Origin: Cyclobacteriaceae bacterium
GTDB lineage: Bacteria; Bacteroidota; Bacteroidia; Cytophagales; Cyclobacteriaceae
NCBI GenBank assembly: GCA_023151255.1
Contig: JAKLJG010000004.1
Span: 124,001 to 188,000, forward strand
Direction: 5' to 3'
DNA: 64,000 nucleotides
Part shown: one piece after another, positions 42,998-50,250 of the stretch
How positions within the stretch are numbered: position 1 is the first letter of the stretch
How the letters are laid out: each line of letters starts with the position of its first letter
Notes under the pieces: model-generated
The model's database searches: none
What the model was told of the DNA's origin: nothing
What the model saw: only the letters and a program-made list of their open reading frames with translations
Translations under genes and position numbers: made by a program

Positions 42998-44287
42998 ATG
43001 AGTAATCGAAGAAACTTCCTGCAAAGGGCCCTCGGCTTTGCCGGTGCCTTTTCACTTGCACCATTGGCTGCCAAAGCTGTTGCCGAAGATGTATCGGATG
43101 CGCTGCAATCGCTCAATAAACGAAGTCCGCTTGATGCTGCGTCAGATGAAGACCTCTGGGCACGTATGGCGCAGGCGTACACTGTATCGCCCAACATTAT
43201 GAACCTCAATAATGGAGGAGTTAGTCCGCAGCCGAAAGTAGTACAGGATGCCGTTGACCGCTACTACCACCTGAGCAATGAAGCCCCCACCTACTACATG
43301 TGGCAGATTCTGGACAAAGGCCGCGAGCCCCTGCGCAGAAAGTTAGCTGAACTGGCCGGAACATCACCCGAAGAACTGGCCATTAACCGCAACGCCACCG
43401 AAGCGCTGGATACAGTAACCTGGGGGTTGACTTTGAACAAAGGCGATGAGATTGTGATGACCCGCCAGGACTACCCCAACATGGTACAGGCCTGGAAACA
43501 AAAAGAAATGCGCGATGGAATCAAAATCAACTGGATTAGTTTTAACCTGCCCGTTGAAAATGATGAAACCTTCGTTAAGGCGTTCGTGAATGCCACCACT
43601 GCCAAAACCAAAATCTGGCACATTACCCACATGATTAACTGGACGGGCCAGATACTGCCGGTAAAAAAATTATGCGAAGAAGCCCGTAAGCGAAACATCA
43701 TCTCTATTGTGGATGGCGCCCACACCTTTGCCCATATGGATTTTAAAATACCCGACTTCAACCCCGATTATTATGGCACCAGCCTGCATAAGTGGTTAAG
43801 CGCTCCCTTCGGCACAGGCATGCTGTATGTAAAGAAGGAAAACATTGGCGGACTGTGGCCGCTCTTCCCCAACGATAAACCCACTGACAGCAACATCCGA
43901 AAATTCGAAACCTTAGGCACCCGGTCCTTTGCTCCTGAACAGGCCATCGGCCAGGCTATTGATTTTCACAATGCCATCGGCAGCAAACGCAAAGAAGAAC
44001 GCCTGCGCTATTTAAAAAACTACTGGTGCGAAAGGGTGATTAAAAACCCGCGTGTCAAACTGCACATCTCCATGAAACCCGAATACGCCTGTGCGTTGGG
44101 TACATTTTCAATTGACGGCATGGATCCAAATGATGTAGTGAACAAACTATTCAATGATCACCAAATTCACACCACCGGCATTAAATGGGAAAACATTAGT
44201 TGTGTACGCGTTACCCCGCATGTGTACACCACCACCCGCGACTTAGACCGGTTTGTTGAAGCTGTTCTCAAAATTGCCTCCTCATGA
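42998..44287 (+). CDS. Tat-exported class V aminotransferase (isopenicillin-N epimerase-like)
   Basis: This 429-residue PLP enzyme carries a twin-arginine signal (MSNRRNFLQRALGFAGAFSL) with the RRxFLQ consensus, so it is probably exported folded. The class V fold is shown by NLNNGGVSPQP, RNATEALDTVTWGL, Asp239 in IVDGAHTFAHMDF and the Schiff-base Lys265 in YYGTSLHKWLSAPFGTGMLY. The family includes isopenicillin-N epimerases and cysteine desulfurases; the sequence does not decide which, and an exported member is unusual. Its stop overlaps the start of a penicillin-acylase gene (ATGA, 44284-44287). Confidence 0.92.
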   Translation: MSNRRNFLQRALGFAGAFSLAPLAAKAVAEDVSDALQSLNKRSPLDAASDEDLWARMAQAYTVSPNIMNLNNGGVSPQPKVVQDAVDRYYHLSNEAPTYYMWQILDKGREPLRRKLAELAGTSPEELAINRNATEALDTVTWGLTLNKGDEIVMTRQDYPNMVQAWKQKEMRDGIKINWISFNLPVENDETFVKAFVNATTAKTKIWHITHMINWTGQILPVKKLCEEARKRNIISIVDGAHTFAHMDFKIPDFNPDYYGTSLHKWLSAPFGTGMLYVKKENIGGLWPLFPNDKPTDSNIRKFETLGTRSFAPEQAIGQAIDFHNAIGSKRKEERLRYLKNYWCERVIKNPRVKLHISMKPEYACALGTFSIDGMDPNDVVNKLFNDHQIHTTGIKWENISCVRVTPHVYTTTRDLDRFVEAVLKIASS

Positions 44288-46683
44288 GAATTTGGATTGC
44301 CGCTCTTCTGATGAGTTTTGCGTGCCAGCCAGAAGAGCAAAAAAACATACAACTTTTTGTGCCCGGCTTACTCAAGCCAGTCGAGGTATTCCGCGACTCA
44401 GCCGGCATTAACCATATTTACGCTCAAACTGAGCACGACCTGTTTTTTGCACAGGGCTATTGTGCAGCTAAAGACCGGCTCTTCCAGTTTGAGCTGTGGC
44501 GCAGGCAGGCTTCGGGAACACTGGCCGAAATACTGGGTGAAGAGGAGGTGCAGCGCGATATCGGGGCGCGACTGTTCAAATACCGTGGTGATTTAGAGAA
44601 GGAGTTCAATCACTATCATCCTCGCGGAAAAGAAATTATTACTGCCTTTACCGATGGCATCAACGCGCTCATAGCTGAAACCGAAAAAAATCCTGAGTTG
44701 CTTTCGCCTGAATTTGGTCTTCTTGGAATCAAACCCGGTTACTGGACACCCGAACTGGTGGTCTCGCGCCACCAGGGTTTACTCGGAAATCTAACCGATG
44801 AATTAACCCTGGCCAGGGCTGTTGCTTTGCTGGGACCTGAAAAGGTAAAAGACCTCCGGTCGTTTGAGCCTGGCAAGCCAAGGTTGGATCTTGATCCATC
44901 TATTGATCAGAGCGGGTTGTTTGAGAATATTATCAGCCCGTATGAAGCCTTTCGTAAACCCATACTATTTAAGTCCGGCCATCTTGCGGCTTGTGGAGCA
45001 TCCGACCATGAACAATTTCAACAACTTGCAGGTACCGACAGTCCGGTTTTCGAAGCGCTTTTCACTGATCCCGACCGAACCATCGGCAGCAATAATTGGA
45101 TTGTAAGCGGCAGCAAAACCACCACCGGCCTGCCCATGCTGGCCAACGACCCGCACCGAGCCGTTACCGAGCCCTCGCTCAGATACATTGTGCACCTAAA
45201 CGCCCCGGGCTGGAATGTAGTGGGTGGTGGTGAACCCACCATCCCCGGAGTTTCCATCGGCCATAATGAGCATGGTGCATGGGGTTTAACGGTGTTTAAT
45301 ATTGATGGTGAAGATTTGATGGTGTACGAACTTAATCCTAAAAATGAACTGCAGTACCGGTATCAAGGCAACTGGGAAACGATGACGGTTGTGCGCGATA
45401 CCATCCGTGTTAAAAATGCAAACAATGTTTATGTTGAACACAAATACACCCGTCACGGCCCTGTTACTTTTATCGATAAAAAACGCAACAAAGCATACGC
45501 TGTTCGATGCGCGTGGCTTGAGCCGGGAGGCGCACCGTACATGGCCAGCCTGCGGATGAACTCCGCCAAAACGTGGGATGAATTCCGTGAAGCCTGTTTG
45601 TACAGCCATATACCGGGCGAAAACATGATCTGGGCCGATAAAGCCGGCAATATCGGGTGGCAGGTGGTGGGTATTGCACCGGTGCGTAAAAACTGGGATG
45701 GCCTGGTGCCCGTGCCGGGCGATGGCCGTTATGAGTGGGAAGGATTTTTGCCTGTAAAAGAACTTCCTCATGTGTATAATCCTGAAAAAGGTTACTGGGC
45801 AACAGCAAATGAAAACCTGGTGCCCGTTAATTACCCCCACCGCTATGCCGTAGGCTGGGAATGGGCCGACAGCAGCCGGGCAAAACGTATTGAGGCAGTG
45901 TTATCAGAAAACAAAAAATTCAGTCAGGCTGATTTAGCACAATTGCAGTTCGATTACTTCTCCGTTCCGGCAAGCCGGCTTGTTCCGTATCTGCAAGCGA
46001 TTTCATTTTCCGATACCAAAACCGATAGCCTAAGAGAACTCCTGTTAAAATGGAATTATGTGCTTGACAAAAATTCGGTTGAGGCCGCAGTGTATATGGC
46101 GTGGGAAAAGAGGTTGATAGAAAAGGCTTATCCGCTTTTTGTTCCTGAAAACGCGCGCGCGGTAATACGCGGTGTTTCGCTTCGAAAAGTAATTAACTGG
46201 ATTATCACAAACCGATTAGAACTAGGCAACCGAAACGCCTTTTTAAAATCAAGTTTTGAAGATGCCGTTCAACAACTCGCTGTAAAACTTGGCTCCAATA
46301 CTAAAAGTTGGCAGTACGGCCAGCCCGGGTATCATCATGTACTTATTAAACATCCGTTGAGCATCGCCCTACATGATTCTTTACAGCATATTTTTAACAG
46401 TGGTCCGTTACCGCGGGGCGGTTCAGCCTCTACACCCAACGTAACCAGCAACAACGATAACCAAAGCCATGGGGCCACCTTCAGGCTGGTGGCCGATGTT
46501 TCCGATTGGGATAAAACCATCTTTACCAATGCCCCCGGGCAAAGCGGGGATGTGCGTAGTGTATTCTACCGAAACCTTTTTGAAGGTTGGGCCAAGGATA
46601 CGCATTTTAAAGTTTACTTTACCCGCGCTAAAATTGAAGAATCCACACATGAAAAGACCGTGTTAATGCCTCATGCCCGTTGA
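44284..46683 (+). CDS. Penicillin acylase-family N-terminal nucleophile hydrolase, lipoprotein
   Basis: This 799-residue precursor has a short lipoprotein signal (MRIWIAALLMSFAC, Cys14). The Ntn-hydrolase cleavage site and catalytic Ser269 are in GSNNWIVSGSKTT, with the upstream spacer region giving alpha and beta chains. The beta chain has ANDPHRAVTEPSLRYIVHLN and the conserved ENMIWADKAGNIGWQVVG. Members cleave side-chain amides of penicillins or N-acyl homoserine lactones. It is coupled to the upstream PLP enzyme and overlaps the next gene by 11 bases, so an N-acyl amino acid compound may be a joint substrate. This is inference. Confidence 0.94.
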   Translation: MRIWIAALLMSFACQPEEQKNIQLFVPGLLKPVEVFRDSAGINHIYAQTEHDLFFAQGYCAAKDRLFQFELWRRQASGTLAEILGEEEVQRDIGARLFKYRGDLEKEFNHYHPRGKEIITAFTDGINALIAETEKNPELLSPEFGLLGIKPGYWTPELVVSRHQGLLGNLTDELTLARAVALLGPEKVKDLRSFEPGKPRLDLDPSIDQSGLFENIISPYEAFRKPILFKSGHLAACGASDHEQFQQLAGTDSPVFEALFTDPDRTIGSNNWIVSGSKTTTGLPMLANDPHRAVTEPSLRYIVHLNAPGWNVVGGGEPTIPGVSIGHNEHGAWGLTVFNIDGEDLMVYELNPKNELQYRYQGNWETMTVVRDTIRVKNANNVYVEHKYTRHGPVTFIDKKRNKAYAVRCAWLEPGGAPYMASLRMNSAKTWDEFREACLYSHIPGENMIWADKAGNIGWQVVGIAPVRKNWDGLVPVPGDGRYEWEGFLPVKELPHVYNPEKGYWATANENLVPVNYPHRYAVGWEWADSSRAKRIEAVLSENKKFSQADLAQLQFDYFSVPASRLVPYLQAISFSDTKTDSLRELLLKWNYVLDKNSVEAAVYMAWEKRLIEKAYPLFVPENARAVIRGVSLRKVINWIITNRLELGNRNAFLKSSFEDAVQQLAVKLGSNTKSWQYGQPGYHHVLIKHPLSIALHDSLQHIFNSGPLPRGGSASTPNVTSNNDNQSHGATFRLVADVSDWDKTIFTNAPGQSGDVRSVFYRNLFEGWAKDTHFKVYFTRAKIEESTHEKTVLMPHAR

Positions 46684-47302
46684 TCTCTCGATTTTAAAGG
46701 AATCTTTACCACATCTAAGCGAGGTTTTGCAAAAGCAATTTGCCTCCGAAGGAATATTAACCGAACTGGATAGCGGTACCGAAATCCTGAAGGAGGGTCA
46801 GTCGGTTAAAGTTATCCCTATTGTGCTGAACGGTTTAGTAAAAGTTTTTACGCGGCACGAAGACAAAGAATTGCTCCTCTATTACATCAGGCCCCGTGAA
46901 AGCTGTGTCATGTCGTTTCTGGCCGGCATTAAAAACCAGCCCAGCCGGATTTTTGCGCTTGCCGAGGAGCGTGCCACATTACTGCTCCTTCCTTCGAAAA
47001 AAGTGGAGCAATGGATAAATGAGTATCCCCAACTAAATAACCTGTTTTACGATTTATACAACAACCGGTATTCTGAGCTGATTGATACACTGCACCAACT
47101 TATTTTTCAAAAACTGGATGCACGCTTGTATGACTACCTCGTTGAAAAAAGCCGGCTTAAGGGCACGCCTTTGCTGGATTTACGCCACCGCGAAATTGCG
47201 CAGGATCTGGGCACTTCGCGTGAGGTTATTACCCGGGTGCTGAAAAAACTTGAAAAAGAGGGTAGAATCAGGCAAACCCATCTGGGCATCCACCTTTTAT
47301 GA
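46673..47302 (+). CDS. Crp/Fnr-family regulator
   Basis: This 209-residue regulator has a cyclic-nucleotide-binding-like beta-roll (about 20-130) and a well-formed C-terminal winged helix with HREIAQDLGTSREVITRVLK as the HTH. The sensor has Cys at about 78 (ESCVMSF) but no four-Cys Fnr cluster. Its start overlaps the penicillin-acylase stop by 11 bases, so it is part of that unit. The stop codon overlaps the first of two dyads in the downstream promoter (47299-47330), making the downstream gene pair a likely target. Confidence 0.93.
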   Translation: MPVDLSILKESLPHLSEVLQKQFASEGILTELDSGTEILKEGQSVKVIPIVLNGLVKVFTRHEDKELLLYYIRPRESCVMSFLAGIKNQPSRIFALAEERATLLLLPSKKVEQWINEYPQLNNLFYDLYNNRYSELIDTLHQLIFQKLDARLYDYLVEKSRLKGTPLLDLRHREIAQDLGTSREVITRVLKKLEKEGRIRQTHLGIHLL

Positions 47303-47330
47303 TTTTTATCATCTGGTGATCAACGTCACC
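47299..47330 (+). promoter_or_regulatory. Two Crp/Fnr-like dyad operators
   Basis: The first site, ATGAT-TTTT-ATCAT (47299-47312), is a perfect dyad of the Fnr half-site type (TTGAT-N4-ATCAA). The second, GGTGA-TCAACG-TCACC (47315-47330), is a perfect dyad of the Crp type (TGTGA-N6-TCACA). They lie directly behind a Crp/Fnr gene. Relative to the predicted start at about 47363, their centres are near -57.5 and -40.5, and the latter fits a class II activator position. Confidence 0.6.
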
Positions 47331-47333
47331 GGT

Positions 47334-47359
47334 TTTGCCCCTACGGAAATCTACTTTTG
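47334..47359 (+). promoter_or_regulatory. Promoter of the small membrane peptide / DUF2892 unit
   Basis: A perfect -7 element TACTTTTG (47352-47359) is preceded by TTTG (47334-47337) at only 14 bases. The short spacer suggests a weak promoter that needs the activator sites just upstream. The predicted start is near 47363, 13 bases before the 27-residue ORF. Confidence 0.55.
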
Positions 47360-47375
47360 ATATACCCTTTCAGCT

Positions 47376-47459
47376 ATGAAAAGCAAGGTCCTGAAACTCA
47401 TCGTGGTTTGTATGATGTGCGTGGGCATTGTTTACCTGCTGATTTGGATTTTTAAATAG
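47376..47459 (+). CDS. 27-residue single-span membrane peptide
   Basis: The short ORF encodes MKSKVLKLIVVCMMCVGIVY LLIWIFK, with two or three N-terminal Lys, one hydrophobic helix and a terminal Lys. It sits directly behind an activator-type promoter and 21 bases before the DUF2892 gene, so it is likely a real small membrane protein rather than a chance frame. The two closely spaced Cys (CMMC) lie in the membrane segment. No family is recognised. Confidence 0.6.
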   Translation: MKSKVLKLIVVCMMCVGIVYLLIWIFK

Positions 47460-47480
47460 AAAACTAAAACCTCAATCATT

Positions 47481-47690
47481 ATGAAAAAGAACATGGGAAA
47501 CGTTGATCGGGTCATTCGGGTAATCCTGGCCGTGATTTTTGGTGTGCTGTATTTTACCGGAACGGTAAGTGGCACCTTGGGTTTGGTGCTGGTTATTCTT
47601 GGCGCGGTGTTCGTGCTAACTAGTCTGGTTAGCTTTTGCCCCCTTTATGCCATCGTGGGTATTAGTACCTGCCCCACAAAAACGGCTTAA
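47481..47690 (+). CDS. DUF2892 small membrane protein
   Basis: This 69-residue protein has two hydrophobic helices and the DUF2892 (YgaP C-terminal-like) pattern: NMGNVDRVIRVILAVIFGVL at the N-terminus, then SFCPLYAIVGISTCP with two Cys near the end. In other proteins this domain is fused to rhodanese (sulfurtransferase) domains or is linked to sulfur or redox enzymes. It follows the 27-residue peptide gene and precedes a bidirectional terminator. Its expression is probably controlled by the Crp/Fnr sites upstream. Confidence 0.88.
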   Translation: MKKNMGNVDRVIRVILAVIFGVLYFTGTVSGTLGLVLVILGAVFVLTSLVSFCPLYAIVGISTCPTKTA

Positions 47691-47750: not shown

Positions 47751-48674
47751 TCAATAGTCCTCAAACCATTGAAATGTTCGCTGCACAATCTGATTCTTCT
47801 CCTTTCGAAGATAGTCAAGAAAAGACTGGGCCACAGGTGAATGCTTTTTGCCGGTAAGCCAGATAAGGCTCCAGGTGGTTTTAATTGGTAAACCTTTTAC
47901 GGGCACAATCTGAAGCTGGTGGTGGTGTAGTTCATTTTTAATGCCAATCAGGGGCATGATGGAGTAACCCAGTCCGGCCAGCACCGCCTGTTTAACAGCT
48001 TCGTTGGAAGTTAATTCCATTTTACGGACAACGGGAATATTGTTTTTATTTATAAAAGCCTCCATAGTTAGCCGCGTACCCGAACCCATCTCGCGGAAAA
48101 TTAGTGGTAGTTCGTGGAGCAGGGTCTTTGAATACGGTTCTTTCTTAAACACCCGATCCATATTGCCTACCAAATAAAGTTTATTTTGCATCAGGTCAAT
48201 CCGATCAACACGCAACGCGGTTGGCAGAATCGAAACCAATGAAAAATCAACTTCGTTGTTTTCCAGGCTTTTAATTACCTGGCTTTTATTGGTTACATCG
48301 ATGATTACTTCAACACCTCCGTGTTGCCGGGCAAAACCGGCAATGAAATGAGGCATCACGTATTTTCCGGTAGATACTACTGATATCTTCAGCTTACCGA
48401 ATAACTGCCCCCGGTGTTCATACAACTTGCCTTTAAGCAGGTTTACCTCTTCAAGAATCCGCGCGGCCGATTGGGCTACCTCCCGCCCAAAGTCGGTAAC
48501 GTAAAGTTTACGCCCCACCACTTCAATCAGTGGCAAATCGAACTGGTCCTGAAAATTTTTTAACTGGATAGAAACAGCCGGCTGGGTTAAGTGGAGTTCC
48601 TCCGAAGCCTTGGTTACGCTGCCGGCCTCAACCACTTTCAGAAAAATCTGAAGTTGATGCAAGGTGTAGTTCAT
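47751..48674 (-). CDS. LysR-type transcriptional regulator
   Basis: This 307-residue LysR regulator has an N-terminal winged helix (MNYTLHQLQIFLKVVEAGSV and TKASEELHLTQPAVSIQLKN, residues 1-40), a linker helix and a periplasmic-binding-protein-like effector domain (about 90-300). It is divergent from two small genes and an SbtA bicarbonate transporter. CmpR/CcmR/CbbR-type LysR proteins control inorganic-carbon uptake in other bacteria, so a similar role in sensing a carbon metabolite is plausible. Its own operator overlaps the start region (48672-48699). Confidence 0.92.
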   Translation of the reverse strand: MNYTLHQLQIFLKVVEAGSVTKASEELHLTQPAVSIQLKNFQDQFDLPLIEVVGRKLYVTDFGREVAQSAARILEEVNLLKGKLYEHRGQLFGKLKISVVSTGKYVMPHFIAGFARQHGGVEVIIDVTNKSQVIKSLENNEVDFSLVSILPTALRVDRIDLMQNKLYLVGNMDRVFKKEPYSKTLLHELPLIFREMGSGTRLTMEAFINKNNIPVVRKMELTSNEAVKQAVLAGLGYSIMPLIGIKNELHHHQLQIVPVKGLPIKTTWSLIWLTGKKHSPVAQSFLDYLRKEKNQIVQRTFQWFEDY

Positions 48675-48699
48675 AAGTATTCTTTATGATTTTCATACT
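48672..48699. promoter_or_regulatory. Candidate LysR operators in the divergent region
   Basis: Two overlapping dyads are present: CATAA-N7-TTATG (48672-48688) and AGTAT-N14-ATACT (48676-48699). They straddle the LysR start and face the small-gene/sbtA unit, as expected for autoregulated LysR sites of the T-N11-A type. Confidence 0.4.
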
Positions 48700-48717
48700 A
48701 AAGTTAAATAAAAATAT

Positions 48718-48981
48718 ATGTTTATGAATGCCGATTATTGTCCCCGCAAACACCAAATGCCCATGAAAACTATAGTGAGCCAACTCAATAACGCTGGATT
48801 TAAAGACCTTCAGCCAATTTTTTTTATTTCCATTCTAATAGTTTTTGGCGCCTCCTTAACTGTGGCCAATCCGCTTTACGCCCATTTGTTCAATGGGCTT
48901 ACCATTTGGTTATGTTCATTAGTAATACAATCAACAGAAAACTCAACATCCACCAAACCAGCTAACGATGAAAACAATTAG
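48718..48981 (+). CDS. Small membrane protein, first gene of the sbtA unit
   Basis: This 87-residue protein (or 72 residues from the second ATG at 48763) has two hydrophobic stretches: IFFISILIVFGASLTVANPL and LFNGLTIWLCSLVIQ. It ends in a polar Asn/Ser/Thr-rich tail. It overlaps the next small gene by 14 bases. No family is recognised. Its position suggests a membrane accessory of the bicarbonate transporter, but this is inference. Confidence 0.55.
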   Translation: MFMNADYCPRKHQMPMKTIVSQLNNAGFKDLQPIFFISILIVFGASLTVANPLYAHLFNGLTIWLCSLVIQSTENSTSTKPANDENN

Positions 48982-49270
48982 TAATGAAAAAATCGCATCT
49001 GTTAAATTGATTGACGGCTATTTTTCTGCCGAGGAGGCCAGGGATATTTTACTGAACCTGATTACCAGTAAAATCAATTTTCATGAAGTAAAAAATTTTG
49101 CTTCACTTGAAAAAACTGGTAAACCGGATATTACTGCGCTACATCGCCTGCCTGAACTTCGCGAAGAGCGAAAAAAAATTATAGCAGCAGTGGAATATTC
49201 TATTCAAAATGGATACGCCTTTAAAATAACCTCTGCCATCCGGATAGAATTGATGGATGAGGGCCAATAG
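48968..49270 (+). CDS. 100-residue hypothetical protein upstream of sbtA
   Basis: This soluble protein has the pattern VKLIDGYFSAEEARDILLNL, SKINFHEVKNFASLEKTGKP and REERKKIIAAVEYSIQNGYA. The order suggests two beta-strands flanking long helices. It lacks the T-loop and Gly-rich signatures of PII-like SbtB, the usual SbtA partner, so I do not call it SbtB. Its length and its position 20 bases before sbtA are nevertheless like those of SbtB. The function is unknown. Confidence 0.7.
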   Translation: MKTISNEKIASVKLIDGYFSAEEARDILLNLITSKINFHEVKNFASLEKTGKPDITALHRLPELREERKKIIAAVEYSIQNGYAFKITSAIRIELMDEGQ

Positions 49271-49290
49271 TCAATTGGGGTACCTGTTTG

Positions 49291-50250
49291 ATGAACATGC
49301 AACTGTTGCTTGAAAACCTTACCAATCCGGCCCTACTCTTTTTTGTGCTGGGCATTCTGGCGGTAACCTTTCGTAGCGACCTGCAGATACCACCCAACTC
49401 TTCGAAGTTCATCTCGCTATACCTACTGTTTTCCATCGGTTTTAAGGGGGGCCAGGAATTGGCCCACGAAACATTTTCACTTGAAATTGTCTGGTCCATC
49501 CTGTTTGGCTTATCGGCTTCTTTTTTAATACCGGTGTACGCCTATTTTGTCCTGCGAAACCGGTTTTCGGTCTATGACTCAGGGGCTATTGCAGCTTCCT
49601 ATGGGTCCATTAGTGCAGTTACTTTTGTTACTGCAACAACTTACCTTGAGGCCCATCAGTTAACTTTGCACGGTCATATGGTTGCGGTTATGGCGTTAAT
49701 GGAAGCGCCAGCCATTATTAGCGGTTTGTTGCTAATCAATTTCTTTTCCGATAACGGGTATCAGCAATTCAGTAAACGCAAAGCGGTTTGTCATTCACTC
49801 ACTAATGGCAGCGTGTTCTTAATTATTGGCAGTCTCATCATCGGATTATTGGCCAGCGAAGAACAGGCGCAGGGAATCAAACCGTTCACAACCGATATCT
49901 TCAAGGGATTTCTGGCCATCTTCCTGCTCGACATGGGTATTGAAAGCGGACGGAATCTTAAATCGCTTTTCTCTTTTGGCTCATTTCCAATACTCTTTTC
50001 GGTGTTCATCCCACTCCTCAACGGTTGCGTATTTGCATACCTGAGCGGTTTTATAACACCCGATGTATCCAACCGGTTTATCTTCGCCATTCTTACGGCA
50101 AGTGCATCTTACATAGCCGTTCCTGCCGCCATGAAAGTAAGCGTACCGCAAGCCAACCCCGGACTCTATCTGCCGATGGCATTAGCGATAACTTTTCCGA
50201 TAAACATCACCATCGGTATGCCGCTTTACTATGCTATTGTCAACCAATGA
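49291..50250 (+). CDS. sbtA: SbtA-type sodium-dependent bicarbonate transporter
   Basis: This 319-residue inner-membrane protein has about ten helices in two inverted halves, as in SbtA (DUF897). Landmarks are LTNPALLFFVLGILAVTFRS, YLLFSIGFKGGQELAHETFS, GAIAASYGSISAVTFVTATT and ASYIAVPAAMKVSVPQANPG. The serine-rich loops that bind bicarbonate in cyanobacterial SbtA are present in outline. It imports HCO3- with Na+. The ATG at 49291 is used rather than a TTG one codon upstream. Two small genes and a LysR regulator accompany it. Confidence 0.9.
   Translation: MNMQLLLENLTNPALLFFVLGILAVTFRSDLQIPPNSSKFISLYLLFSIGFKGGQELAHETFSLEIVWSILFGLSASFLIPVYAYFVLRNRFSVYDSGAIAASYGSISAVTFVTATTYLEAHQLTLHGHMVAVMALMEAPAIISGLLLINFFSDNGYQQFSKRKAVCHSLTNGSVFLIIGSLIIGLLASEEQAQGIKPFTTDIFKGFLAIFLLDMGIESGRNLKSLFSFGSFPILFSVFIPLLNGCVFAYLSGFITPDVSNRFIFAILTASASYIAVPAAMKVSVPQANPGLYLPMALAITFPINITIGMPLYYAIVNQ

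Follow-up and report, generated by a model that had tools for sequence, protein, structure and literature searches.

In Escherichia coli, class II promoters combine a Crp-fold regulator, the cyclic AMP (cAMP) receptor protein CRP, with a GTGA-N6-TCAC site, which we take to be centred at -41.5, and have no conserved upstream core element. Cur/BT4338 of Bacteroides, like the regulator described here a Bacteroidota protein, reportedly belongs to the Crp family and is a master regulator of carbohydrate use. YgaP of E. coli carries a rhodanese and a two-span membrane domain, and thiocyanate export has been hypothesised for it (excerpts of PMC4730233). Here, we describe a locus of a Cyclobacteriaceae bacterium (GCA_023151255.1, contig JAKLJG010000004.1), found in a stretch of 64,000 nucleotides (nt; positions 124,001 to 188,000 of the forward strand), hereafter called the window. 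It encodes a Crp/Fnr-family regulator, a 27-residue CxxC peptide and a DUF2892 protein. The locus is likely a compact regulator-target module, in which a class II Crp/Fnr activator, probably responsive to thiols or sulfane sulfur, would drive the peptide and DUF2892 as a membrane pair. With the CRP class II promoters it shares the regulator fold, the site, the predicted geometry and, in the sites aligned below, the lack of a conserved upstream core element. It differs from them in having the Bacteroidota TAnnTTTG -7 element, not a -10 element, and in being a local one-target module.

The regulator gene (46673..47302, + strand; 209 aa) is separated from the peptide open reading frame (ORF) by 76 nt, including its stop codon (47300-47375). 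Two perfect dyads and a perfect -7 element near the regulator stop, on which the first-pass annotation was built, can be read directly in this region. Dyad 2 (GGTGA-TCAACG-TCACC, 47315-47330), with its core GTGA-N6-TCAC at 47316..47329 (GTGATCAACGTCAC in the window) and its centre at 47322.5, is the predicted activator operator. The -7 element (TACTTTTG, 47352..47359, + strand) begins 22 nt past this core, and the predicted transcription start is the A at 47364 (+ strand). Downstream follow the peptide gene (47376..47459, + strand; MKSKVLKLIVVCMMCVGIVYLLIWIFK) and the gene for DUF2892, a YgaP-like TM protein of 69 aa (47481..47690, + strand). The first 11 nt of the regulator gene are shared with the end of a 799-aa ORF upstream, so that the regulator is probably transcribed from the upstream operon; dyad 2 should govern the downstream genes only. 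Neighbouring genes varied among the loci compared below, and the module itself persisted.

By sequence alone, the dyads would be modest evidence, and conservation decides. Mononucleotide shuffles of the 76-nt intergenic region gave a mean of 0.16 perfect 5+5 dyads (spacer 4-6), with two or more in 1.6% of the shuffles; the real region (47300-47375) scores one, since dyad 1 starts one base earlier. For the comparison, reference genomes were scanned with an alignment of the regulator, and the best 80 loci of a longer list, named by organism, were taken. The taxa in their titles were Cytophagales, Flavobacteriales, Chitinophagales, Bacteroidales, Balneolaceae and Chlorobiota. DUF2892 was found directly after the regulator, that is with a match at most 260 nt behind it, in 68 of the 80 loci. 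An exact GTGA-N6-TCAC lay between the two genes in 62 of these, and the remaining six had GTRAC-N4-GTYAC with one base changed. The dyad expected before DUF2892 genes in relatives was thus present, for dyad 2, in all 68 loci. Where the regulator had no adjacent DUF2892, dyad 2 was found in one of 12 loci (L142), with a DUF2892 match starting 589 bp further downstream. The exact dyad was associated with DUF2892 adjacency (Fisher test, 1.3e-8, ignoring relatedness). Six of the 80 named loci duplicate genomes that are also included under G handles; without them, the counts were 57/63 and 1/11, and the shuffle expectation was 0.07 dyad loci in 74. The predicted operator is conserved widely in Bacteroidota. 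As the basis of a genome-wide regulon, the tight motif RGTGAYNNNNRTCACY was rejected: it had two sites in the window's own genome, one of them here and the other inside a coding ORF, and the latter site was also present in genome G014.

In all 63 exact-dyad loci, the best TAnnTTTG match (0 or 1 mismatch) was placed 22 or 23 nt past the dyad, tied with another place in five. A scan of 241 genomes of the order with GTGACNNNNGTCAC, allowing 31 spacings, returned 41 sites, of which 34 were at 22-23 nt and 31 at exactly 22; the reversed control pattern returned 10 matches. An A five bases past the -7 element was shared by 34 of the 44 loci with 22-nt spacing, which places +1 at 47364 and the centre of dyad 2 at -41.5. 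With this spacing and start, the site has the position typical of class II activation. The class II geometry of the first-pass annotation therefore held, with its spacing kept at 22-23 nt, but its centre of about -40.5 and its start near 47363 were corrected by the shared A. No -33 element stood out in the aligned spacers of the 44 loci. The predicted promoter anatomy is well supported, and the locus would illustrate, with strong conservation, class II activation on the unusual Bacteroidota -7 promoter, its spacing constant to 1-2 bases. Across the aligned loci, operator, spacing and gene linkage were shown to be conserved at the sequence level, as was the peptide. The conserved dyad 2, the spacing and the gene linkage support the earlier idea of a compact regulator-target module.

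The regulator matched PF13545 and PF00027 above cut-off, so that a cyclic nucleotide-binding-type sensor domain and a Crp-type helix-turn-helix are present. Its AlphaFold model, which serves fold assignment only, had the Crp fold (predicted local distance difference test, pLDDT, 82; predicted template modelling score 0.58) and matched CAP structures. Its recognition helix, TSREVITR, follows the pattern R-E-x3-R. In E. coli CRP, this pattern reads TGTGA, where the G4:C4 pair is contacted by Glu181 together with Arg185 (part of PMC11253593). We compared helix and dyad type among distinct Crp-family genes from protein-similarity loci, with identical sequences and helix-gapped rows excluded. Among 113 regulators with Glu in the helix (E-type), a GTGA dyad was present within 300 nt in 79 and a GTAA dyad in none; among 20 with Val (V-type), the numbers were none and five (Fisher test, 3e-8, ignoring relatedness). 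The R-E-x3-R helix of the regulator thus fits a GTGA site. The V-type subfamily (helix R-V-V-x-S-R; L012-L030, L277-L306) had GTAAC-N4-GTTAC dyads in these five of 20, and by eye a few of its members adjoin YeeE/YedE-, TauE- or SulP-looking genes. The E/V distinction held for sites adjacent to crp but was rejected as a general rule, since it is not strict for unlinked sites of the genus.

GTGA dyads near so many E-type family members would also fit a different assignment, in which another Crp/Fnr paralog uses the dyad as its operator and the adjacent regulator controls other genes. Peptide-DUF2892 units without adjacent crp do exist, some of them with GTGAC dyads. Against this, the exact dyad stood directly after the regulator in 63 of the 80 loci and was absent from 11 of the 12 without adjacent DUF2892, and we consider the paralog assignment quite unlikely.

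Cys78, in the sensor domain, is the only cysteine of the regulator. Its column was Cys in every one of the 133 distinct members whose recognition helix had no gap, and in the alignment to E. coli CRP it falls on Ile70, the residue that precedes Gly71-Glu72. The G-E and R-S residues, which we take to be the cAMP phosphate-binding cassette of CRP, are not kept at the aligned positions, in contrast to a cAMP-dependent CRP; the cysteine lies beside those positions. Oxygen-sensing FNR has N-terminal Fe-S cysteines, and a single Cys in the whole protein sets the regulator apart from it as well. The best match among solved structures, 3dv8 (a Crp/Fnr protein of Eubacterium rectale), also has Cys at the Cys78 position, so the conserved cysteine may extend beyond Bacteroidota.

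The distance from the crp stop to DUF2892 was bimodal. A CxxC ORF of roughly 30 aa was found in 30 of the 31 loci with a spacer of at least 160 nt and in none of the 37 with a shorter one. In an alignment of 36 members, 91 Lys/Arg residues stood before the CxxC and 18 after it, and there was one strongly hydrophobic stretch. Together this suggests a single span with the N-terminus inside and the CxxC near the inner face of the membrane. With the start and the two Cys left out, the proportion of nonsynonymous differences (pN) was 0.45 over 666 pairs of 37 peptides, versus 0.66 when codons were shuffled within each peptide; the proportion of synonymous differences (pS) was 0.72, which is saturated. 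Residue order is therefore kept. For the 20 pairs whose regulators were at least 75% identical, pS was 0.55, pN 0.27 and pN/pS about 0.49; for the 64 pairs at 65% or more, pS was 0.64 and pN 0.31. In both sets the pairs are not independent.

A profile search found the peptide in 40 of 148 genomes of the family at E <=0.05, 38 of them at <=4e-5, and in 11 of 17 genomes of the genus, with no match in the other six. No credible Pfam match was obtained for any member. The peptide belongs to a conserved family of about 30 residues with one predicted span and a CxxC, a microprotein family outside every Pfam model, beside a widespread DUF2892 of uncertain role. Of 30 loci taken from the peptide search, two (L192, L196) yielded no CxxC ORF near the centre; among the 28 in which the peptide was placed, 10 had it with DUF2892 and without adjacent crp. 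Six genomes of the genus (L204, L311-L315) have such a unit, and in three of these loci (L204, L314, L315) a homolog of the window gene at 42998-44287 lies directly upstream of it. Among plasmid records, searched for an annotated copy of the module, the best listed match had 38% identity.

Such a short ORF, mostly just upstream of DUF2892, could also have a tuning role in DUF2892 translation, as a leader or an upstream ORF, and make no working peptide. The conserved residue order argues otherwise, as do loci in which the peptide follows crp and no DUF2892 was found (L010, L161, L169) or stands with neither gene found within about 1.5 kb (L202, L203, L207). DUF2892 is also often found behind the same promoter without the peptide. 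A leader function is thus very unlikely.

The DUF2892 protein matched PF11127 (YgaP-like_TM) at 80.6 bits, versus a cut-off of 25.3 (9e-23). Its two cysteines, pointed out in the first-pass annotation, are Cys53 (in CPLY) and Cys64. The first Cys was kept in all 68 loci (CP[LIV]Y in 67, CPFY in one), and two Cys were present in 62 of them. The PF11127 membrane domain is shared with E. coli YgaP, where it is fused to the rhodanese (PMC4730233, excerpts). At 69 aa, the protein here has the membrane part only, unlike the YgaP sulfurtransferase, and its gene often stands behind that of a CxxC peptide. The structure model was weak (pLDDT 64) and had two long helices, and it carries no structural claim; no solved chain matched DUF2892 in a single-sequence search.

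The composite pattern GTGA-N6-TCAC-N22/23-TAnnTTTG had 116 matches in 73 of 291 genomes of the order, versus 18 for the reversed control. Of the 115 sites outside the window, 108 had a correctly placed ORF and seven had none, at least 55 codons being required. Sulfur or thiol genes came first behind 62 of the 108 sites, or 71 with DUF2892 included. Ten clusters were named by a Pfam search with one member each, and the others from sequence. The larger clusters were metallo-beta-lactamase (MBL)/rhodanese (27 genes, four of them rhodanese-like only), TauE (17) and DUF2892 (9). These were followed by peroxiredoxin (6), SoxA/TsdA-type cytochrome c (6), Crp/Fnr (5) and thioredoxin-like proteins (4). 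Small clusters were cytochrome c assembly protein (3), L-PSP endoribonuclease-like (3), methyltransferase (2), SulP (1) and Sulf_transp (1), and the other 24 first genes formed two pairs and 20 singletons. The window's own genome had four sites. One precedes the peptide-DUF2892 unit, and the others stand before genes for a thioredoxin, a universal stress protein and an MBL-fold protein, the last of which has a TauE-like gene and a Crp paralog beside it. The genes found downstream of other sites with this architecture lend indirect support to the earlier guess of a redox or sulfur stress response, and they link a large set of unassigned Crp/Fnr regulators, with one conserved, mutable Cys, to sulfur and thiol genes.

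Two side observations concern other loci. In L099 and L100, class II sites stand before SoxA/TsdA-type cytochrome c genes, divergent from a gene that resembles, by eye, one for a sulfide:quinone oxidoreductase. In L045 (170-185), a perfect GGTGAC-N4-GTCACC lies upstream of a gene whose product, again by eye, resembles a pyridoxal phosphate-dependent enzyme of the cystathionine gamma-synthase type, with the nearest -7 element much farther away.

As the signal, we prefer sulfane sulfur or a thiol oxidant, sensed through the cysteine. Control of sulfide and persulfide genes through a regulator cysteine, which is probable here, is shared with the FisR and BigR persulfide responses of Acinetobacter, from which the present regulator differs in its Crp/Fnr fold; the same paper reports a Crp-like protein as highly persulfidated, to unknown effect (PMC7315123, in part). 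Searches of an open-access library, outside which most subscription papers lie, listed no paper in which we recognised an account of the module, of its peptide or, for Bacteroidota, of a sulfur regulon under a Crp-type protein. Should the sulfur reading prove true, it would give the Bacteroidota a Crp-type sulfur-stress switch. A wider proposal, which we offer tentatively and hold to be possible rather than probable, is that a Bacteroidota Crp/Fnr subfamily senses sulfane sulfur by one conserved Cys and not by a nucleotide or Fe-S cluster. Its output would be a new class of membrane microproteins, acting with DUF2892 as a CxxC thiol or persulfide relay at the inner membrane.

Crp/Fnr proteins are often sensors of nitric oxide (NO). 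With the same promoter anatomy, the regulator could sense NO or another redox gas, and DUF2892 and the peptide would then form a nitrosative stress response. NO is a possible signal, and the main rival of the preferred one, because a DUF2892 gene of Bradyrhizobium (bsr5776) lies in an NnrR-dependent operon with TrxC, as given in part of PMC6710368. The first-gene clusters, in contrast, were dominated by sulfur and thiol genes, and known NO genes formed no cluster that we recognised among them, with Pfam run as described above. An NO response is, on balance, unlikely.

Like the Bradyrhizobium operon, several further points weigh against the preferred sulfur reading or the evidence behind it. 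The sulfur link rests mostly on class II sites, many of which probably serve paralogous regulators, so these sites tell more about the regulator family than about its member here; the target that is conserved in the clade itself is DUF2892, whether or not the peptide accompanies it. Eleven of the 115 sites lay inside some ORF of at least 150 codons, and the first-gene counts cover the pattern sites only. In four genomes of the genus without this regulator, the sole family member (E 1e-20 or better) was V-type, and the dyads before peptide-DUF2892 were GTGA (G007, G015), mixed (G003) or GTAA (G016). Two others (G004, G013) had an E-type paralog as their only family member by the same threshold, and mixed dyads. 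The small ORF, which the first-pass annotation expected to be conserved upstream of DUF2892, was kept almost throughout where there was room for it, but it was absent in 38 of the 68 crp-DUF2892 loci, and L128 has a long spacer yet no peptide. Since the ORFs were chosen by CxxC, part of the CxxC conservation in the 36-row alignment follows from that choice. A pN/pS of 0.33 (22 peptide pairs) was discarded as biased, its pairs having been picked by low pN; values of 0.78-0.89 were biased the opposite way, with pairs picked by low pS.

For cysteine-based sensing, as preferred here, we infer the binding, activation, signal, topology and biochemical role of the module as follows. The Crp/Fnr protein, probably supplied from the upstream operon, would bind dyad 2 as a dimer via its R-E-x3-R helix. 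At -41.5, beside the usual -33 position, it would recruit RNA polymerase as a class II activator and turn on the two-gene unit of the CxxC peptide and the two-span DUF2892. Cys78 would be the likely sensor of reactive sulfur (persulfide or polysulfide) or of another thiol oxidant. The CxxC of the peptide and the cysteines of DUF2892 would both be at the inner side of the membrane, where they would act jointly on sulfane sulfur or thiols.

Dyad 1 (ATGAT-TTTT-ATCAT, 47299-47312; core TGAT-N4-ATCA, 47300..47311) is a possible second operator, and its left half overlaps the TGA stop of the regulator (47300-47302). Its core was present in six of 11 same-genus loci, versus 0.03 expected, and in two of 63 wider loci, versus 0.07 expected, one of the two being a same-genus genome. 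In the six genus loci, it starts 16 or 21 nt upstream of the start of dyad 2; three of them have no adjacent crp, and two of these three have another offset. Equal standing with dyad 2 was rejected, as dyad 1 is rare beyond the genus and its left half lies in the stop codon region. Of the two-dyad promoter proposed earlier, dyad 2 proved widely conserved, but dyad 1 is a genus-level feature. It was not dismissed because six of the 11 genus loci carry its core. Centred at -58.5, it may be a lineage-specific site of another Crp/Fnr protein.

Downstream of the module (47751-50250), a LysR gene lies on the - strand, with CbbR as its best NCBIfam match, below cut-off. Divergent from it are an 87-aa ORF, a 100-aa protein without a Pfam family and then an SbtA-type bicarbonate transporter (PF05982, 4e-110). 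A guess for the 100-aa protein is that of an SbtB-like partner.

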